A DNA stretch of 64,000 nt from Pseudothauera hydrothermalis (GCF_003345255.1 NZ_CP029331.1:1-64000), one strand, 5' to 3'. Positions 2,688-54,528 are shown, counted from the stretch's first letter. The notes: generated from the letters alone by a model not told the origin. Made by a program: numbers and translations.

Positions 2688-5195
<2,508 letters not shown>

Positions 5196-46125: not shown

Positions 46126-46202
46126 TGGCGCGCCCGGCGCGATTCGAACGCACGACCCCTGCCTTCGGAGGGCAGTACTCTATCCAGCTGAGCTACGGGC
46201 GC
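46126..46202 (-). tRNA. tRNA-Arg (anticodon CCG)
   Basis: A 77-nt cloverleaf on the minus strand. The acceptor stem GCGCCCG pairs with CGGGCGC. The D arm contains AGCTCAGCTGGATAGAGT. The anticodon stem CTGCC / GGCAG encloses loop CTCCGAA with anticodon CCG at 46166-46168. The T arm contains GTTCGAATC. Discriminator G and an encoded CCA complete the 3' end. It reads the CGG codon, frequent in this GC-rich genome. tRNA genes are common integration targets, but no attachment repeat was seen beside it. Confidence 0.96.
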
Positions 46203-46287
46203 TTTGACCGACGCCCCGGACACTGACGTACCGGGAACGAGGGCGGCAGCTTACTCGGGTTTTGGCGCAAAGTCCATGCTGCGAAGA

Positions 46288-46343
46288 ACATTGACACATT
46301 GACGTGCCAAAATGTGGGCGATGGGCTAGCCACTAGGTTAGCC
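46288..46343. promoter_or_regulatory. Cluster of short repeats upstream of ttrS, candidate operator region
   Basis: ACATTGAC occurs twice in tandem at 46288-46303. CACATT at 46295-46300 and AATGTG at 46311-46316 form an inverted repeat with 10 bp between. GGCTAGCC at 46324-46331 is followed by GGTTAGCC at 46336-46343. TTGACA at 46291-46296 matches a -35 hexamer, but no -10 is seen at the right distance. These lie 57-112 bp before the ttrS start and could bind TtrR or a redox regulator; this is inference from position. Confidence 0.35.
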
Positions 46344-46399
46344 ATGATCTTCTAGGACACTTACCCTGGACCTGCATCCAACCCTCGAGTCATCCAGCG

Positions 46400-48208
46400 A
46401 TGACAAATCGTCTTTGGATTTTCGCCCTTCTCTTACTGTTTGCTCGCCTAGTCTTTTCTGCACCGACCGATCAGCCGGCGGTGCGTGTCGGCGTACTTGC
46501 TTTTCTTGGTGTCGAAGCAGCAAACGATGACTGGTCACCTGTGGTACGCCGTCTTCAAGCGGCCATGCCTGATCGCCAAATCAGCCTGGTCCGCCTCGAC
46601 CACCGCAGTCTGCGGGAAGCGGCCGCGCGTGGCGATATCGACTTTTTGATCACCAACCCAGGGCATTATGTAGAGCTTGAGGCAGCCCTGGGCGCAAGCC
46701 GAATTCTTACACTGGATTCGCCACCCGCACATACGCCCGCACGGGCAATCGGCTCCACCGTGGTAGCCCTGGCCAACCGTGATGACCTGCACACCTTGGC
46801 CGATCTACGCGGCAAACGCCTAGCGATCGTCACCCCGGAAGGGTTTGGCGGCTACCAGGTGCTTTGGCGGGAACTGGCCGAGTCGGGGATCGACCCTGGA
46901 AACGATCTGGCGGACTTGAAGGTCGTCGGCCTGCCAATGACCAACGTGTTTCGCGCGCTGGAGGCGGGTCAAGCGGACGCGGGCATCGTGCGCACCTGCC
47001 TGCTGGAAAACCGTCCAACCTGGCGCGAAACCTTCCGCGTGGTGGGCGCGCGCGACGAGGCGGACTTTCCTTGCGCGACCTCATCCAGGCTGTATCCCGA
47101 TTGGCCACTCGCCACCCTGCGCGGCACGCCACCGGAGCTGGCCAAGGAGGTTGCGCTGGCGCTGCTGGCGATGAACGCGGAGCGGGACGGCATGGCCTGG
47201 GCCGTGCCAGCCGACTATCAAGCAGTGCACGAGATGTTCCGTGCGCTGCAGATCGGTCCCTACGCCTATCTCGCCGAACCGACGCTGATGATGCTCGCTG
47301 AGCGCTACTGGCCCTGGGTAGCGGGCTTTGCCTCGCTGTTGGTGGGGTGGATCCTGTATACGGTACGGGTCGAGCATCTGGTGCATCTGCGCACGGCGGA
47401 ACTGCGCACTGCGCTGGCCGCACGCGACGAGTTGGAAGGGCGTATGCGCGCCCACCAGGAGCAGGCCGACCACTTATCGCGTCTGTCGGTGCTGGGCGAA
47501 CTGTCCGGCACGCTTGCGCACGAACTCAACCAACCGCTGGCGACCATCGCCAACTACGCGCAGAGCCTGGTGCGACGCGCCGACGACGGCCGCCTGACCG
47601 ACAGCGCGGTGCGCGAGGCCGCTGACGAGATTGCCATACAGGCTGAACGTGCCGCGGATATTCTGGGGCGCATCCGCGGCTTTGCCCGCAAGCGCACCAC
47701 CGTACGTGAGCCACTTGCACCGCGGACCTTGGCTGAGGATGCCATCGCGCTGTTCCGCGGCATGCTGGCGAGGGCACCGCAAGTCACCCTGACAGACGAA
47801 CTGCCGCCCAATGTCCGCGTGGAAGTCGATCCGCTGCAAATCCAACAGGTGCTGCTGAACCTGCTGAAGAACGGCTACGATGCCAGCCGCGCGCTGCCGC
47901 CGGAACGTCGCCGCCTTGCGGTACTGATCACCGACGGCGACGGCCACGTTTGCATTGCGGTACGGGACCACGGACCAGGGCTGAACGCCGAGGTACGCGA
48001 GCGCCTGTTCGAACCCTTTTTCACGACCAAACCCGATGGCCTGGGGCTGGGTCTATCGATCTGCCGCAGCATCGCCGAAGCGCACCGCGGCAGGTTGACG
48101 GTCAATTGTACCGATTCGCGGCCAGGCTGCGAGTTCATCCTTAGCCTGCCGCTGGCCGCGCCGGAAGACCCGACCACCGAAGCACAACCCGACCATGCTG
48201 CCAATTGA
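46400..48208 (+). CDS. ttrS: Tetrathionate-type sensor histidine kinase TtrS
   Basis: Membrane sensor kinase of 602 residues. It begins with a signal/anchor segment (about 1-21). A periplasmic PhnD-type binding domain (about 25-290) follows, with RVGVLAFLGVEAANDDWSPVVRRLQ, DFLITNPGHYVEL and KRLAIVTPEGFGGYQ. A transmembrane helix lies at about 303-325. The HisKA domain has His374 in LAHELNQPLATIANYAQS, and the HATPase domain has the N box LLKNGYDA and GLGLGLSICRSIAEAH. In Salmonella the same architecture senses tetrathionate and switches on ttrBCA. Its stop overlaps ttrR by 14 bp. The ligand here is inferred from the adjacent ttrBCA genes. Confidence 0.92.
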   Translation: MTNRLWIFALLLLFARLVFSAPTDQPAVRVGVLAFLGVEAANDDWSPVVRRLQAAMPDRQISLVRLDHRSLREAAARGDIDFLITNPGHYVELEAALGASRILTLDSPPAHTPARAIGSTVVALANRDDLHTLADLRGKRLAIVTPEGFGGYQVLWRELAESGIDPGNDLADLKVVGLPMTNVFRALEAGQADAGIVRTCLLENRPTWRETFRVVGARDEADFPCATSSRLYPDWPLATLRGTPPELAKEVALALLAMNAERDGMAWAVPADYQAVHEMFRALQIGPYAYLAEPTLMMLAERYWPWVAGFASLLVGWILYTVRVEHLVHLRTAELRTALAARDELEGRMRAHQEQADHLSRLSVLGELSGTLAHELNQPLATIANYAQSLVRRADDGRLTDSAVREAADEIAIQAERAADILGRIRGFARKRTTVREPLAPRTLAEDAIALFRGMLARAPQVTLTDELPPNVRVEVDPLQIQQVLLNLLKNGYDASRALPPERRRLAVLITDGDGHVCIAVRDHGPGLNAEVRERLFEPFFTTKPDGLGLGLSICRSIAEAHRGRLTVNCTDSRPGCEFILSLPLAAPEDPTTEAQPDHAAN

Positions 48209-48827
48209 TGATTGTGTGATCCATGTTGTCGATGACGACGAAGCGTTCCGCCGCTCGCTGGTTTTCTTGCTCGAATCCGTGGGCTGGCGGGTAGTCAGTC
48301 ATGCTTCGGCCGAGGCGTATCTGGCCGCCGGCAGCGACGCGACGCCCCCGGCTGGCTGCCTAGTGCTCGACATCCGCATGCCTTCGATGAGCGGGTTGGA
48401 ATTGCAAGAGCGCCTGAACGCAAGCGGCACCTTGCTTCCGATTGTGTTCATCACGGGTCATGGCGACGTCGAGCTGGCGGTACAAGCGATGAAGCACGGC
48501 GCCTGCGACTTTCTGCAGAAGCCATTCAAAGATCAGACTTTGCTCGACGCGGTCGCGGCAGCGGTTCGGCGCGGTGCAGAGCAGCGATCACGCGCTGCCC
48601 AGCGCGACGAGGCGGAGGCTAGGCTTGGCCGCCTGTCACCACGCGAGCTGCAAGTGGCCAGGCTGGTGGCGCGCGGTCTGCCAAACAAACAGGTGGCACG
48701 GGCGCTAGACATCAGCGAAAAGACAGTCCATGTGCACCGTCAGCATGTGATGGAGAAAACCGAAACAGGCAGTGCCGCAGAACTGGCGCGCCTGATGCTG
48801 CGCGCCGATCCAGCGGCACTGGATTGA
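48195..48827 (+). CDS. ttrR: Tetrathionate-type response regulator TtrR (FixJ/LuxR class)
   Basis: A 210-residue response regulator. The receiver domain (about 7-120) has the acidic pair in VVDDDEAFRR, phospho-acceptor Asp59 in LVLDIRMPSMSG, Thr in FITGHGDV and Lys in FLQKPF. The LuxR-type helix-turn-helix (about 147-188) is LSPRELQVARLVARGLPNKQVARALDISEKTVHVHRQHVMEK. It overlaps ttrS by 14 bp and converges with ttrA 36 bp away. By analogy with Salmonella it activates ttrBCA when phosphorylated by TtrS; the binding site in the ttrB upstream region was not identified. Confidence 0.93.
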   Translation: MLPIDDCVIHVVDDDEAFRRSLVFLLESVGWRVVSHASAEAYLAAGSDATPPAGCLVLDIRMPSMSGLELQERLNASGTLLPIVFITGHGDVELAVQAMKHGACDFLQKPFKDQTLLDAVAAAVRRGAEQRSRAAQRDEAEARLGRLSPRELQVARLVARGLPNKQVARALDISEKTVHVHRQHVMEKTETGSAAELARLMLRADPAALD

Positions 48828-48863
48828 CCCGGCCGGCCGCACCTATGACCGGTGCCGCCCTCC

Positions 48864-51800
48864 TCACAGACGAACCAGACGAACCGGCAGCCCGTTGCGC
48901 ACTGAAGTGCCGGACACAGAATCCACCCAAATCGCCTCCCCGTCGCGAGCCGGATCGACAAGCCCAATGTCATTGATGTTGATGCCTGCGGCCAGATCAG
49001 GTCGCTGCGGCTGACGGTACTCGCCCATGCGGTGCGCACGCGCGCCCAGCTCACGATGGCCGTAGCCATGCTCCACAGCCACCACGCCGCGCATCACACC
49101 TTCATGCACGATCACCCGGCATACGCATTCGCCGCCCGGAGACTGTAGCTTGACCAGATCCCCACTGACTAGACTGAGCTTGGCGGCATCGTCCGGATGC
49201 ACAATGACGGGATTATCCGGGTGCAGCGAAGTAATGCGAGTGGCGATGCTATAGGAATTTTGCAAGGCGGACTTGAAGCTGACTGCCAACAGCGGCCAGT
49301 CGGCCTCTCGGTGTATCGCACGCATCGGCGTGCCATCGGCAAAGGCCGGTGGCTGCCAGGTCGCGCAGCCGGAAAAGCGCTTGCCGGTGAGGCTGTTGCG
49401 TGCGCCGCCGACGTTGTCGTTCCACAGCCACAGTACCGACTTGAAGCGGTTGGCCTGCCATTCCGGGTTTTCCTCGTCTTGCGCCTGGTTGGCCGGCTGG
49501 TAGCGCCCACCGCGGGTGTAGAGAAAGGCGACTTTGCGCCATTCGTCTTCCTTGAGCGTCGCTTCGAGCACGGGGCGCAGACGGTCCACGCCGGAAAGTG
49601 CGAGATCCTCGTCGCTGGCATCGCCCACAGGGGTTTTACCGGCAAAAGCGATATTGGCCCCGCCACGTAGATACCAGTGTTCCGGGCGTTCGAGCGGCAC
49701 CCGGTTGCCGTCCATGTCCGCCAGCCCTTCCGAGCCAAAGCCCGGCAGCACCAACGCCTTGGCCAGGGCAATGAAGAAGGTCTCCATGCACACCGGTTGG
49801 CCATCCGCCGTTTTCGCCGCCTTCGGTTCGACCACCGGCCAACGCGCGGTGGTGGCCTTGGTCGGTACGCCATTCCACGGCGATGCCCAGCCCCAGCTCT
49901 CATACATCAGCGAATCGGGTACGATGTAATCGGCAAAGGCGTTGCTTTCGTTGATCAACGGGTCGACCGAAATGATCAGCGGCAGCTTCTTGGGGTCGGC
50001 CAAGTCCTGTTCGATCAGCCGACGAATACCCGGGATGCCATAAACCGGATTGGCGCTCCACAGCACCAGTGCCTTGATCCGGTATGGGTAGCCGCGCAGC
50101 ATGGCGGGGAACCACTCGGTGGCAAGACCCGGCGCGTTGGGGAACCACGCATCGCGCGCCGGATAAGGCTTGCCTTCCGCCTTGCGGCTCGCGAACTCGG
50201 CGGATTTCTCGTACGGCACGTTACGCCCTAGCGGCGTGCCCTTGGGCTTGATCGCACCGGGAAAGCTTTCCAGATCGTAGCGCGGCCCCTTGCCAGCATC
50301 CTTGAAACCGCCACCGTTGGCCACAAAACCGCCCTTCCAGTTTATGTTTCCGATCAGCGCATTGAGCGTAACCACCGCGTAGGCGTTGTAGAAGCCGTTG
50401 CCGGTCATCATGCCACCGTGGGCGACTGCACTGGCGCGACGGCCGTGACTGGTGAATTCCTCGGCCAGGCCGACGATGACCGCCTCCGGCACGCCACAGG
50501 CCTCTGCGTATTCAGACAAACTCAGCTTCATTGCCGATTCACGCAGCAGTTCAAAGGAGGTGCGCACCATGATCTCGCGCTCGCCCACCGACACCGAGCC
50601 GGCGGATTCCAGCGGCACCGGCCCGTTTGCCGCCTCGGCCGGGATTGGTCGCCCATCGGTACCCCACACCAAGTAAGGGTCCGCATCGGTATAGCGGACG
50701 TCGGCTACCATCGCCATGCCAATGTCGGAGCCGCGCAGGAAGCGGCCTTCGCGTGGGTGTCCGGGCTCGACGATCACCAGCCAGGATGCATTGGTGAAGG
50801 ACGGCTCGCCCGCCGCAGTCGCCACGCGGGCATTGGGGTTGGCGAGGTAAGCGGCGTTGAACCGGCCGTTCTCGAACATCCAGCGCATCATGCCCATTAC
50901 CAGCGCGCCGTCGGTGCCCGGCCGGATCGGCACCCAGCGTGCGCGTTCGCCGGCGGCACGGTTGTCGGCGTTAGTAAGCACCGGGTCGACCACTACGTAC
51001 TCCAGCTTGCCTTGGCTGCGTCCCTTGGCAAGCAGGGCGCCTGTGCGCTTGAACGGGTTGCCGGCATTGCCCGGCGCGGTGCCGATGAAAAGCACGAATT
51101 CGGCGTTGGCCAGGTCCGGCTTGGCATGCGGCATTTTCTTGAGATCGCCGAATAACGCCCCAGAGCCCGATCGGTAGGCGCCGCCACAATAAGAACCATG
51201 ACCGATGAAATTCAACGTGCCGTAGGCCTGGTTCCAGAACCGGCGTGCAAAGGCCTCGCGGCCGTCGTTGACGCTGTTCCACACCGCTACCTGATTGACC
51301 CGGGGGCCAAGCTCCGGTGCCTCAGGATCGATCAGCGCAGTGAGATCGCGCAGCGCACGTAAGCCGTCGACATGGCCTTCGCCGAACAGGTCGCCGCCTT
51401 CTACCACTTCCTTGACCAGCTGTTCGAAGGAAATCGGCTGCCACTGCCCGGAATTGCGCGGCCCGACACGCTTCAAGGGGGTGAGCACGCGGAAGGGCGA
51501 ATTCATTTGATCCATCGCTGCGTTACCGCGACCGCAGGCGGTAGAGCGCCCGGCCAGCCCCTTGTCCTGGTAGCGCGACAAAGCGATGAGGCTCTCTTTG
51601 ACCGAGACCTCCATTGGAAGGTGCGGCTCGGTCGACAACGGGTTGTAGGGATTGCCCGCAACGCGTAGCACCCGGCCGCTGGCCTTGTCGATGCGGACCC
51701 GCACGCCGCACTGGGTGGTGCACCCTAGGCAGGAGGTGTAACTGACCTGCTGCGCCGGATTCACCTTCAACTGGCCGCTGGCAGGGTCGATGCTGAACTC

Positions 51801-51947
51801 CGGTTCCGCGGAGCGCCCGTGGATGTTGTGGGCCTGCGGCTCGCTGCCGGTCAAACCGGACACCATGCGGCCGAGGGTCTGGGAGAAACCGGCGGCGAAT
51901 GCAGCCAGACCGCCCGCGGCAATCAGTTCTCGACGTTCGATTTTCAT
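48864..51947 (-). CDS. ttrA: Tetrathionate reductase catalytic subunit TtrA
   Basis: Molybdopterin-guanine-dinucleotide oxidoreductase of 1027 residues from the ATG at 51947. The N-terminus MKIERRELIAAGGLAAFAAG is a twin-arginine signal for export of the folded enzyme. A [4Fe-4S] site is formed by C73-x2-C76-x3-C80 and C138. Cys254 in GHGSYCGGAYRSG is the probable molybdenum ligand. The C-terminal dinucleotide-binding domain (HPDNPVIVHPDDAAKLSLVSGDLVKL) is complete. Family: reduces tetrathionate to thiosulfate with electrons from TtrB and TtrC. Close relatives include selenate and other oxyanion reductases, so the substrate is probable rather than proven. It is last in ttrBCA. Confidence 0.9.
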   Translation of the reverse strand: MKIERRELIAAGGLAAFAAGFSQTLGRMVSGLTGSEPQAHNIHGRSAEPEFSIDPASGQLKVNPAQQVSYTSCLGCTTQCGVRVRIDKASGRVLRVAGNPYNPLSTEPHLPMEVSVKESLIALSRYQDKGLAGRSTACGRGNAAMDQMNSPFRVLTPLKRVGPRNSGQWQPISFEQLVKEVVEGGDLFGEGHVDGLRALRDLTALIDPEAPELGPRVNQVAVWNSVNDGREAFARRFWNQAYGTLNFIGHGSYCGGAYRSGSGALFGDLKKMPHAKPDLANAEFVLFIGTAPGNAGNPFKRTGALLAKGRSQGKLEYVVVDPVLTNADNRAAGERARWVPIRPGTDGALVMGMMRWMFENGRFNAAYLANPNARVATAAGEPSFTNASWLVIVEPGHPREGRFLRGSDIGMAMVADVRYTDADPYLVWGTDGRPIPAEAANGPVPLESAGSVSVGEREIMVRTSFELLRESAMKLSLSEYAEACGVPEAVIVGLAEEFTSHGRRASAVAHGGMMTGNGFYNAYAVVTLNALIGNINWKGGFVANGGGFKDAGKGPRYDLESFPGAIKPKGTPLGRNVPYEKSAEFASRKAEGKPYPARDAWFPNAPGLATEWFPAMLRGYPYRIKALVLWSANPVYGIPGIRRLIEQDLADPKKLPLIISVDPLINESNAFADYIVPDSLMYESWGWASPWNGVPTKATTARWPVVEPKAAKTADGQPVCMETFFIALAKALVLPGFGSEGLADMDGNRVPLERPEHWYLRGGANIAFAGKTPVGDASDEDLALSGVDRLRPVLEATLKEDEWRKVAFLYTRGGRYQPANQAQDEENPEWQANRFKSVLWLWNDNVGGARNSLTGKRFSGCATWQPPAFADGTPMRAIHREADWPLLAVSFKSALQNSYSIATRITSLHPDNPVIVHPDDAAKLSLVSGDLVKLQSPGGECVCRVIVHEGVMRGVVAVEHGYGHRELGARAHRMGEYRQPQRPDLAAGININDIGLVDPARDGEAIWVDSVSGTSVRNGLPVRLVRL

Positions 51948-51969
51948 GATCTTGTTCCCCAGGTTCGGT

Positions 51970-53067
51970 TCAGGCGCCAGAGCGGTCGGCACGGCCGATA
52001 CGATCGAGCGGCAACAGCGTGGTCAGCACGATGAAGAGGAAAATCCACAACCCCGCGGTACCGGCGATGCCCATCAAGCCGTCTGGACCGAGCGGTAGCT
52101 GGTAGTTGTAGTAGCCCGCGCCGGTCTTGGGCACCTCCTGGCCGCCAATGAAGATCGTCCAGCGCATCATCCAGGCTGAATGCAGCGCGAGCAGGCCGAT
52201 CAGCAGCCCGGAGCCAGGCCACTTCAAGGCCAGCAGCAGCGTGGCCACGCTGACCGCCACCGCCCACAGGGCGCTTAACTGCCAGTTGACCGACGGGGCG
52301 ACCTCGGCAAGCGCCTGGGCATGGACCGGCGATACCCCGCTCACGCCCAACCCCAGCCATGTCGCACCCACGATCAACGCCACGCCCTGGGTCCCGGCCA
52401 GCGCCAGCGCCATCCGCCGGGTTGCTGCGGGATCGCCGCCGCCGGGCAGGAAGCGGTTGAACAGCAGGCTCACTCCCAGCCCGCCTGCGAGCGCAGTGAC
52501 GAAAAACTGCACCGGTAGCAGCGGGGTGTGCCACAACGGACGGGCGCGCACCACCATCACTTCCACACCGGTATAGAGCGCCACCAGCGCCGCGCCGACA
52601 AAGGCGAGCAGGGCCGCAGCGACCAGCGCCTTGCGGCTTTCATGCCCGCCGTAGGCCAGCATGCGCGCCAGCCCGGCGAGCTTGCCGCCTTCTTCCGCGT
52701 GGCGCGCGAGCGCAGGGCGGAAGGCCAGCCAGGCGTAGAGGATCAGGCCGCCGAGGTACACCGGGATGAAGAAGGCGCCCCACGACATCCACGAACTCGG
52801 GGTAAAGTAGGCGTAGAAGTGCCAGAAGCGGCCGGGCTGGTGCAGGTCGGCCAGCAGCGCGACCGGCGCGGTGAGCCCGCACACCAACGCCGCCAATAGC
52901 GCCAAGCGCGAGATGCCCTCCCAGCCGGGACGGCGGAACACCAGGCCCGGCAGGGACACCAGATAGGCGCCGTATGACAGACCGATGAGGAAGAAGTACT
53001 GCACCGCCCACGGCAGCCACGCGACTTCGCGCGCGACATTGACGGTTTCGACGATTTCCGTGCTCAT
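51970..53067 (-). CDS. ttrC: Tetrathionate reductase membrane subunit TtrC (NrfD family)
   Basis: Integral membrane quinol-oxidising subunit of 365 residues with about nine hydrophobic helices in the NrfD/PsrC pattern. Marks include WLPWAVQYFFLIGLSYGAYLVSLPGLVF near the N-terminus, HLNQP-like ADLHQPGRFWHFYAYFTPSSWMSWGAFF, and a last helix ending in FIVLTTLLPLDR. It would pass electrons from menaquinol or ubiquinol to TtrB. It lies 19 bp after ttrB and 22 bp before ttrA. It contains no heme motif, in keeping with NrfD proteins. Confidence 0.92.
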   Translation of the reverse strand: MSTEIVETVNVAREVAWLPWAVQYFFLIGLSYGAYLVSLPGLVFRRPGWEGISRLALLAALVCGLTAPVALLADLHQPGRFWHFYAYFTPSSWMSWGAFFIPVYLGGLILYAWLAFRPALARHAEEGGKLAGLARMLAYGGHESRKALVAAALLAFVGAALVALYTGVEVMVVRARPLWHTPLLPVQFFVTALAGGLGVSLLFNRFLPGGGDPAATRRMALALAGTQGVALIVGATWLGLGVSGVSPVHAQALAEVAPSVNWQLSALWAVAVSVATLLLALKWPGSGLLIGLLALHSAWMMRWTIFIGGQEVPKTGAGYYNYQLPLGPDGLMGIAGTAGLWIFLFIVLTTLLPLDRIGRADRSGA

Positions 53068-53086
53068 GATCGCTCTCCTGTAGCGT

Positions 53087-53827
53087 TCAGGCGTGGGCCT
53101 TGCGCGGCCGCCACAGCGTGCCCTGGCCTTCGACCTTGCCCTGGAAGCGTTCGTCGAGGCCGATGTAGAACACGCGCGGCTCGGTGCCGTGCTCGGGCTT
53201 GAGCACCTTCACCTCGCTCTTCGCAGCATCGAGGCGGCGGCGCAGTTCGCCGTCCGGGTCGTTGAGGTCGCCGAAGATGCGCGCGCCGCCGACGCAGGTT
53301 TCCACGCAGGCGGGCAGCAGGCCGGCATCCACGCGATGCGCGCAGAAGGTGCATTTGTCGGCCGTGTTGCTCTCGTGATTGATAAAGCGCGCGTCGTAGG
53401 GACAGGCCTGCACGCAGTAGGCGCAGCCCACGCAGCGCTCGCCATCAACGATGACGATGCCGTCGGCACGCTTCTTGGTTGCACCGACCGGGCACACCGG
53501 AATGCAGGGCGGTTCGTCGCAGTGATTACACAGGCGCGGCAGCACGTAAGTGCCGGCGGGCTGGACGGCGTCGGAGAGTTTTACGCTGTATGTCGACACC
53601 ACGGTGCGGAAGCTACCCTCGGGTACCGCATTTTCCTGGATGCACGATACGGTACAGGCCTGACAGCCGATGCACTTGCGTACATCGACCAGCATCGCCC
53701 AGTGGTGGCCGACCTCGGCCGCCAGAACCGGTGTCGGCAAAACAGCGGCCGCGGCAGTCAGTACCGGAATGCCGCGCAGGAAATTTCGGCGGGAATCCGA
53801 GATTTCATGCGGATGCAGGTTTTTCAT
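53087..53827 (-). CDS. ttrB: Tetrathionate reductase iron-sulfur subunit TtrB
   Basis: Periplasmic electron-transfer subunit of 246 residues from the ATG at 53827. The Tat signal SRRNFLRG is at 12-19. Four ferredoxin-type clusters are indicated: C52-x2-C55-x2-C58-x3-C62 (CIGCQACTVSC), CNHCDEPPCIPVCP, CVGCAYCVQACPYDAR and CTFCAHRVDAGLLPACVETC. It carries electrons from TtrC to TtrA. It is first in the operon. The 242-bp region upstream, shared with the divergent cytochrome c5 gene, should hold the regulated promoter. A frame extending to 53899 has no Tat-signal logic. Confidence 0.95.
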   Translation of the reverse strand: MKNLHPHEISDSRRNFLRGIPVLTAAAAVLPTPVLAAEVGHHWAMLVDVRKCIGCQACTVSCIQENAVPEGSFRTVVSTYSVKLSDAVQPAGTYVLPRLCNHCDEPPCIPVCPVGATKKRADGIVIVDGERCVGCAYCVQACPYDARFINHESNTADKCTFCAHRVDAGLLPACVETCVGGARIFGDLNDPDGELRRRLDAAKSEVKVLKPEHGTEPRVFYIGLDERFQGKVEGQGTLWRPRKAHA

Positions 53828-54069
53828 GACAACGCTCCAGTGGTTGAGGAGTCGCTGCCACTTTATGCCTCGCAAGCAGCATGGGGAAATTGGCAGCATC
53901 GAGGAGCGGACTAGACCGTTTTACCTATTGCACGGCAACGCAGCGCACCGGCGGCCACCTGAGCCAAAGAGCCACCACCTGCGAGCGCGTCGGACATTGA
54001 TGCGGTGCCACAGGCGGCGACAGGGCCGTTATACTTTGTATTTTGCGCCCGTCAGTCAAAGGACCCAGC
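53828..54069. promoter_or_regulatory. Divergent control region between ttrB and cytochrome c5
   Basis: A 242-bp spacer with no gene. On the plus strand TATACT at 54040-54045 is a good -10 for the cytochrome gene, 24 nt before its ATG, with AGGA at 54059-54062 as ribosome-binding site. A single TTGAT half-site at 53997-54001 lacks the second half needed for an FNR box. No clear TtrR operator or ttrB promoter hexamers were recognised. Confidence 0.5.
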
Positions 54070-54528
54070 ATGTCGGATCATCGTGTCGCTCGTGCCGCCA
54101 AGCGGCCTGTCAAAGTCGTACTACCAGCCGTTGCCGTGATCGCAGTCTCACTGCTGGCAGGCTGTGGCAAAGCGCCTGCGGTCGACCCGGAAGTGACCGC
54201 ATCGGCCATTGCCCCGGTTGCCCGCGTCGAACTCAAGTTGGAGAAAATCGCGCCGGGTTCGCGCACCGGCGAACAGATCTACAAGAGCGTTTGCACCAGC
54301 TGTCATGCCGCCGGTGCGCTGGGCGCGCCGAAGACCGGTGAGGCCGGCGACTGGGCCGGACGCTTGGGCAAGGGCCTGGAGGCGCTGGCTGCGTCGGTGA
54401 CCAACGGCATGGGTAACATGCCGCCCAAGGGTGGCGCGGCCGACCTGACCGACAAAGAGATTCTGCGTGCGGTGGCTTACCTGGCCAACACGGCGGGTGC
54501 AAACTTCACCGAACCGCCGGTGGAATGA
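54070..54528 (+). CDS. Monoheme cytochrome c5-type lipoprotein
   Basis: A 152-residue exported cytochrome. The signal ends AVSLLAGC with lipobox Cys32, so the mature protein is probably membrane-anchored on the periplasmic side. The heme motif CTSCH is at 75-79 and the axial Met lies in NGMGNMPPKGG (Met114 or Met117). The fold and the KTGEAGDWAGRLGKGLEAL segment are those of the cytochrome c5 family. It is divergent from ttrBCA and probably shares its control region. It might relay electrons to or from a sulfur enzyme, but TtrABC normally needs no cytochrome c, so the link is inferred only from position. Confidence 0.9.
   Translation: MSDHRVARAAKRPVKVVLPAVAVIAVSLLAGCGKAPAVDPEVTASAIAPVARVELKLEKIAPGSRTGEQIYKSVCTSCHAAGALGAPKTGEAGDWAGRLGKGLEALAASVTNGMGNMPPKGGAADLTDKEILRAVAYLANTAGANFTEPPVE

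Follow-up and report, generated by a model that had tools for sequence, protein, structure and literature searches.

A divergent, mobile and under-annotated tetrathionate-reductase-type locus in Pseudothauera hydrothermalis, with a candidate TtrR operator

Introduction

What does a five-gene ttr-type locus do in Pseudothauera hydrothermalis, a betaproteobacterium of the family Zoogloeaceae, and how did it come to be there? The locus lies within the first 64 kb of a genome of 3.06 Mb in one contig (NZ_CP029331.1:1-64000; this whole stretch of 64,000 nucleotides is referred to as the window), in which genes were identified by open reading frame (ORF) calling and family searches. Between positions 46400 and 53827, a TtrS–TtrR sensor pair faces a ttrBCA operon, all five genes being intact according to the ORF calls, NCBIfam and Pfam. 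The answer developed here, which is given a probability of about 0.8, is that the locus serves tetrathionate respiration, belongs to the alpha/betaproteobacterial branch of TtrA and was acquired horizontally. The locus is ordinary in kind and well supported: it represents a divergent, mobile and under-annotated branch of tetrathionate reductases, accompanied by a new candidate operator. It also places complete, regulated loci of the tetrathionate-respiration type in Zoogloeaceae, which are known as denitrifiers and degraders of aromatic compounds.

Gene content and family identity

TtrS (46400–48208, + strand, 602 residues) is a membrane sensor histidine kinase with a PhnD-like periplasmic domain, in which Pfam recognises Phosphonate-bd, HisKA and HATPase_c, and TtrR (48195–48827, + strand, 210 residues) is a response regulator of the FixJ/NarL type with Response_reg and GerE domains. 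The two genes overlap by 14 bp and form one operon. On the - strand, the operon runs in the order B-C-A: ttrB (53087–53827) encodes a predicted twin-arginine translocation (Tat)-exported electron-transfer subunit of 246 residues with four [4Fe-4S] clusters, ttrC (51970–53067) an NrfD-type membrane subunit of 365 residues (PF03916) with a putative role in quinol oxidation, and ttrA (48864–51947) a predicted Tat-exported molybdopterin catalytic subunit of 1027 residues counted from ATG, with gaps of 19 bp between ttrB and ttrC and 22 bp between ttrC and ttrA. The open frame of ttrA reaches a GTG at 51992, which gives a version of 1042 residues; that of ttrB opens at 53899, and the ATG at 53827 is backed by alignment with Aromatoleum (MKD...SRR). 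The two units lie tail to tail with their stop codons 36 bp apart, and no intrinsic terminator was found in this convergent gap.

These Pfam domains match an earlier note on this DNA, which had read the genes as a PhnD-domain kinase, a FixJ-class regulator, a molybdenum subunit, a four-cluster iron-sulfur subunit and an NrfD subunit, and had taken 46400–54528 for a complete tetrathionate-reductase-type locus. That assignment fits the placement of TtrA, the operon order, the cofactor residues and the co-inheritance of TtrSR. The five genes of the proposed span are indeed intact, but its right end includes a cytochrome c gene that does not belong to the locus.

The best full-length NCBIfam model for TtrA is NF011567, with 1206.5 bits over positions 14–1021 of 1022, followed by PhsA with 132 bits, and the best NCBIfam models of TtrB, TtrC and TtrS are likewise Ttr models. 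Relatives were drawn from named genomes, from the same family (151 genomes), from the phylum and from plasmids. In a tree of 69 rows, built by a quick search with the Shimodaira–Hasegawa-like approximate likelihood ratio test (SH-aLRT) and without direct sampling of Salmonella, the window TtrA falls inside a TtrA clade of 55 rows (support 100) together with TtrA of an E. coli plasmid, Proteus and Aeromonas. Within this clade, 14 rows form a mostly gammaproteobacterial side and 41 rows an alpha/betaproteobacterial side, the latter holding the window protein. Outside it lie the enzyme of the Citrobacter arsenatis ars plasmid, haloarchaeal and Chloroflexi relatives, ArrA and PhsA. Placement of the subunit, which had been proposed as a check, was run on ArrA and PhsA, SrdA not being among the rows, and it puts the protein with TtrA and far from both.

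Residue-level comparison points the same way, with identities of 46–48% to enteric-type TtrA, 22% to ArrA and 23% to PhsA. In the 1042-residue numbering, the Fe-S cysteines of the CX2CX3C...C pattern (C88, C91, C95, C153) align with those of enteric TtrA, and the molybdenum-ligand cysteine C269 stands in an H-G-S-Y-C-G motif common to enteric TtrA. An ArrA identity is rejected by the model scores (79 bits for ArrA vs 1206 for TtrA), by the low identity and by the separate clade, and a PsrA/PhsA identity by 132 bits for the PhsA model vs 1206 and by a separate deep branch. Genome searches for ArrA at 1e-150 and for PhsA at 1e-60 gave no match, and no further strong TtrA relative was found in this genome.

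Acquisition of the locus

Comparison with congeners bears on how the locus reached this genome. In a blastn alignment of the window with the congener G108 (L110), homology ends at 53998 (L110 position 3258) and resumes at 46202 (position 3323). The 7.8-kb block between these points, 46203–53997, stands in place of about 64 bp of the G108 empty site (L110 3259–3322) and holds the whole ttr locus, namely ttrS, ttrR, ttrA, ttrC and ttrB, with nothing else recognised. All five congeners searched have uvrD/rep, the cytochrome c gene and tRNA-Arg(CCG) contiguous, with no ttr there. The congeners G057 and G144 carry ttr at other sites and with diverged sequences, the G057 TtrA being identical to that of Pseudothauera lacus. 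The window TtrA groups with Aromatoleum and Azoarcus Aa7 (SH-aLRT 97) and not with the congeners, and a clade joining it to the congeners' copies is rejected by the approximately unbiased (AU) test (p 3.7e-6). Because of the empty site in congeners, the Aromatoleum grouping and the AU test, the locus was most likely acquired horizontally as one unit, from an Aromatoleum-like source. What appears to move between genera is a single 7.8-kb ttr unit.

A search for an integrase or for repeats bounding an island found neither, the block consisting of ttr genes only and the repeats being of low identity and of the kind that arises by chance. Both boundaries are resident features outside ttr: tRNA-Arg(CCG), identified by ARAGORN at 46126–46202 on the - strand, forms the left one, and a gene for a monohaem lipoprotein cytochrome c at 54070–54528 on the + strand (ATG at 54070) forms the right one. 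As an electron partner of the ttr enzyme this cytochrome is ruled out: its gene is an old resident, which congeners lacking ttr at that site also have next to uvrD/rep and tRNA-Arg. In Aromatoleum (L032, L034, L036, L047, L062), ttr lies in the same uvrD/cytC neighbourhood on the opposite side of cytC, in L034 with tRNA-Arg; the block is there found between uvrD and cytC, whereas in the window it lies between cytC and tRNA-Arg. This suggests that the uvrD/cytC neighbourhood is a recurrent insertion spot.

Within the family, ttrA is borne by 15 of the 151 genomes. With this family frequency, and with alphaproteobacterial loci as well, its occurrence beyond the enteric bacteria, which the earlier note had pointed out, is not unusual.

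Layout and co-inheritance of TtrSR

The arrangement of the two transcription units raises the question of whether regulator and enzyme belong together. Convergent ttrSR and ttrBCA units are found in 17 named loci with TtrSR (from Aromatoleum, Azoarcus, Thauera, Parazoarcus, Pseudothauera and Rhodoferax). The units are divergent in Brachymonas, in three enteric-type loci and in Comamonadaceae OH2545 (ttrR and ttrS on the - strand, ttrB on the + strand), and co-directional, with TtrSR upstream of ttrBCA, in 11 loci, 10 of them alphaproteobacterial. Convergence is thus the family rule in Zoogloeaceae and no peculiarity. Over 33 loci, the distances of TtrA, TtrS and TtrR correlate with r 0.96, a value reached in 0 of 2000 permutations, and regulator and enzyme are therefore inherited as a unit, whatever the layout.

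The earlier note had singled out the convergence, and with it a regulator acting from its own operon on a promoter about 5 kb away. The units do converge across a 36-bp gap, and the regulator does belong to a separate operon, but convergence is no notable trait given the family rule, and the distance is no obstacle because a response regulator diffuses; a candidate operator is found immediately before ttrB. As a separate observation, the OH2545 locus (L042 3670–11081) has about 3.2 kb between the ttrC and ttrA matches, which interrupts the usual operon.

The candidate operator upstream of ttrB

The element in question, TAGGTAAAACGGTCTA, occupies 53912–53927 on the - strand, 84 bp before the ttrB ATG, and conforms to TAGGKAAA-N4-TCTA, a pattern with one exact match in the entire genome. 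It is a candidate TtrR operator. Twenty loci align on it in register; 11 columns are invariant, and columns -20 to -6 of the upstream flank carry little information. As these loci were selected for holding the pattern, an invariant core is in part built into the sample, and the informative features of the alignment are the fixed distance to ttrB and the contrast with the flank. Across the 151 family genomes, the exact element stands upstream of ttrB in 11 of the 15 with ttrA, and a match occurs anywhere in 10 of the 136 others (Fisher p 2e-8, a value that overstates independence, given that the genomes are related and that some of them served to define the pattern).

The distribution of variants adds detail to this picture. 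G144 has a second copy of the element before ttrS. Perfect palindromes are found in deeper branches, in G042 (TAGGTACTTTTACCTA) and G105 (TAGGGATTTTTCCCTA), and a related palindrome, TAGGGGTTTATCCCTA, lies near -100 in the alphaproteobacterial Tropicimonas; in the window element, the right arm of the dyad is degenerate. In G049, a clear site was looked for and none was found, and the element is degenerate or absent in L035 and L048, two loci without TtrSR within the stretch examined. One of the ten other genomes with a match, G026 (L124 2690–5773), is without ttrBCA and has TtrS (62%) and TtrR (72%) adjoining an exact element, a combination that may be the remnant of a ttr locus or a sensor with a new target. 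The G026 element is placed upstream of a gene for a small secreted protein.

The known recognition sequence differs. The Vibrio ttrR box at the ttrB promoter is GTGG-N4-CCAC (PMC11293645). In the E. coli plasmid, Proteus and Aeromonas, this box also occurs between ttrS and ttrB, but upstream of the window ttrB or ttrS nothing matches it even with one mismatch allowed. Salmonella ttr needs FNR (PMC11293645), and no FNR-like TTGA-N6-TCAA site was found at the window ttrB promoter, nor was a sigma-70 consensus promoter for ttrB.

The lack of such a consensus, which would fix the promoter geometry, and the closer score of TtrR to FixJ leave room for a regulator other than TtrR at the element. This is judged unlikely, as many sites would be expected for a global regulator, whereas the element has a single exact match in the genome. 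It is, moreover, kept with TtrSR in G026 after the loss of ttrBCA, decays or is missing in L035 and L048, and is duplicated before ttrS in G144. Probably bound by TtrR, the genome-unique element offers a handle on how TtrR recognition changed between the enteric and betaproteobacterial lineages, and sensor and promoter together may make a new tetrathionate-responsive pair for the laboratory.

Proposed function and its alternatives

By analogy with characterised systems, TtrS would bind periplasmic tetrathionate through its PhnD-like domain and phosphorylate TtrR, and phosphorylated TtrR would bind the dyad upstream of ttrB and switch on ttrBCA. TtrC would take electrons from quinol, probably ubiquinol, TtrB would relay them via its four Fe-S clusters to the molybdenum bis(pyranopterin guanine dinucleotide) site of TtrA, and TtrA, on the same analogy, would reduce tetrathionate to two thiosulfates outside the membrane, in the periplasm. 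Tetrathionate-responsive TtrSR pairs that drive ttrBCA have been described in Shewanella and Vibrio (PMC5408782, PMC11293645). Ubiquinol is the likely donor because a search of the genome for MenD gave no match above the cut-off, weak ones being taken as related thiamine diphosphate enzymes (the futalosine route was not searched), and because at least one genus of the family is reported to contain ubiquinone-8 (PMC8565577).

Several observations weigh against this reading. All five proteins score under the curated equivalog cut-offs: TtrA reaches 1206 bits against 1750, TtrB 334 against 416 (NF011569), TtrC 207 against 314 (NF011568) and TtrS 290.8 against 750 (NF040750, its best full-length model), while TtrR scores higher with the FixJ model (223.7 bits) than with the TtrR model (166.9), both values being under the cut-off. 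The window TtrS is only 27–32% identical to the enteric-type TtrS sampled, and the promoter element could answer to another regulator. Thiosulfate is the signal sensed by ThsSR, a paralogous pair of Shewanella (PMC5408782). The wider TtrA/SrdA clade includes enzymes that reduce selenate or arsenate (PMC7331816, PMC10100899), and experimental work on this organism was not found.

The scores below the cut-offs therefore mark a diverged branch that automatic annotation leaves unnamed or misnames, and TtrA, failing its own, is filed as a member of the alpha/beta TtrA branch and not as an enteric-type equivalog. Azospirillum (1214 bits) and Pseudomonas BYT-5 (1413 bits) have TtrA scores in the same range, and the E. 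coli plasmid (2075) and Proteus (2039) pass 1750. NCBI records (L091, L092, L093, L096), relatives from Azospirillum, Pseudomonas and Paracoccus among them, name TtrB of this branch 'sulfate reduction electron transfer complex DsrO', since the protein falls short of the TtrB cut-off but passes that of the DsrO model (223 bits vs 200 for the window protein). With the whole branch left unnamed by the NCBI equivalog cut-offs in this way, surveys of tetrathionate reduction are probably undercounts.

The same low scores could mean that this is a TtrA-family reductase for another oxyanion (selenate, arsenate or another polythionate), with a sensor tuned to that compound. According to a title cited in PMC10149662, a tetrathionate reductase homologue has reportedly been proposed for arsenate reduction in Anaeromyxobacter. 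Such a substrate is nevertheless improbable here: the clade uniting the window protein with enteric TtrA leaves out the ars-plasmid and haloarchaeal branches, the inserted block holds only ttrSRACB and no ars or sel genes, and TtrSR is co-inherited. It is just as doubtful that the alpha/beta TtrA branch, which has a TtrSR lineage and an operator of its own, forms a functionally distinct reductase acting on selenate, arsenate or another polythionate and so far overlooked or misnamed by automatic annotation.

Tetrathionate respiration thus remains the preferred function, although the patchy distribution (15 of 151 family genomes), the acquisition by transfer and a search of the genome in which soxB was not found would also suit a locus that is present but unused, or that serves redox balancing or detoxification instead of growth. 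The intactness of all genes and the exact conservation of the promoter element make this very improbable.

Comparison with related systems

The ttr loci of Salmonella, Proteus, Aeromonas and enteric plasmids share with the window the same five genes, the B-C-A order, the PhnD-domain kinase, the FixJ/NarL-type regulator, full-length TtrA similarity and the same cofactor ligands. They differ in that enteric ttrSR diverges from ttrB, whereas window ttrSR converges on ttrA, in the promoter sequence (TAGGKAAA-N4-TCTA in the window, without GTGG-N4-CCAC) and in the modest identity of TtrA (46–48%) and TtrS (27–32%). Much closer are the loci of Aromatoleum, Azoarcus Aa7, Thauera and Parazoarcus, with TtrA identities of 74–84%, convergent units and the same promoter element at the same distance. 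Azospirillum and Roseobacteraceae carry ttr-like loci of the same enzyme branch, with the related palindrome in Tropicimonas, but their TtrA is 55–61% identical and TtrSR, where present, is co-directional and upstream of ttrBCA. SrdBCA and the alternative arsenate reductases represent published sister functions in the TtrA/SrdA lineage (PMC7331816, PMC10100899).

Same-family genomes without TtrA (L017–L020) encode a second group of MopB proteins, of about 1000 residues and 33–34% identical, with a TtrB-like gene downstream. The relative on the Citrobacter arsenatis ars plasmid differs from the window enzyme in being 35% identical and outside the TtrA clade. On this plasmid (NZ_CP037863.1; L096 7115–11919), an operon of DsrO-like, NrfD-like and MopB genes adjoins arsDABC, and the three-gene operon is a candidate alternative respiratory arsenate reductase. 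The same arrangement beside ars genes is on record for plasmids of Citrobacter freundii and of one E. coli, and at least one plasmid of the whole set is conjugative.

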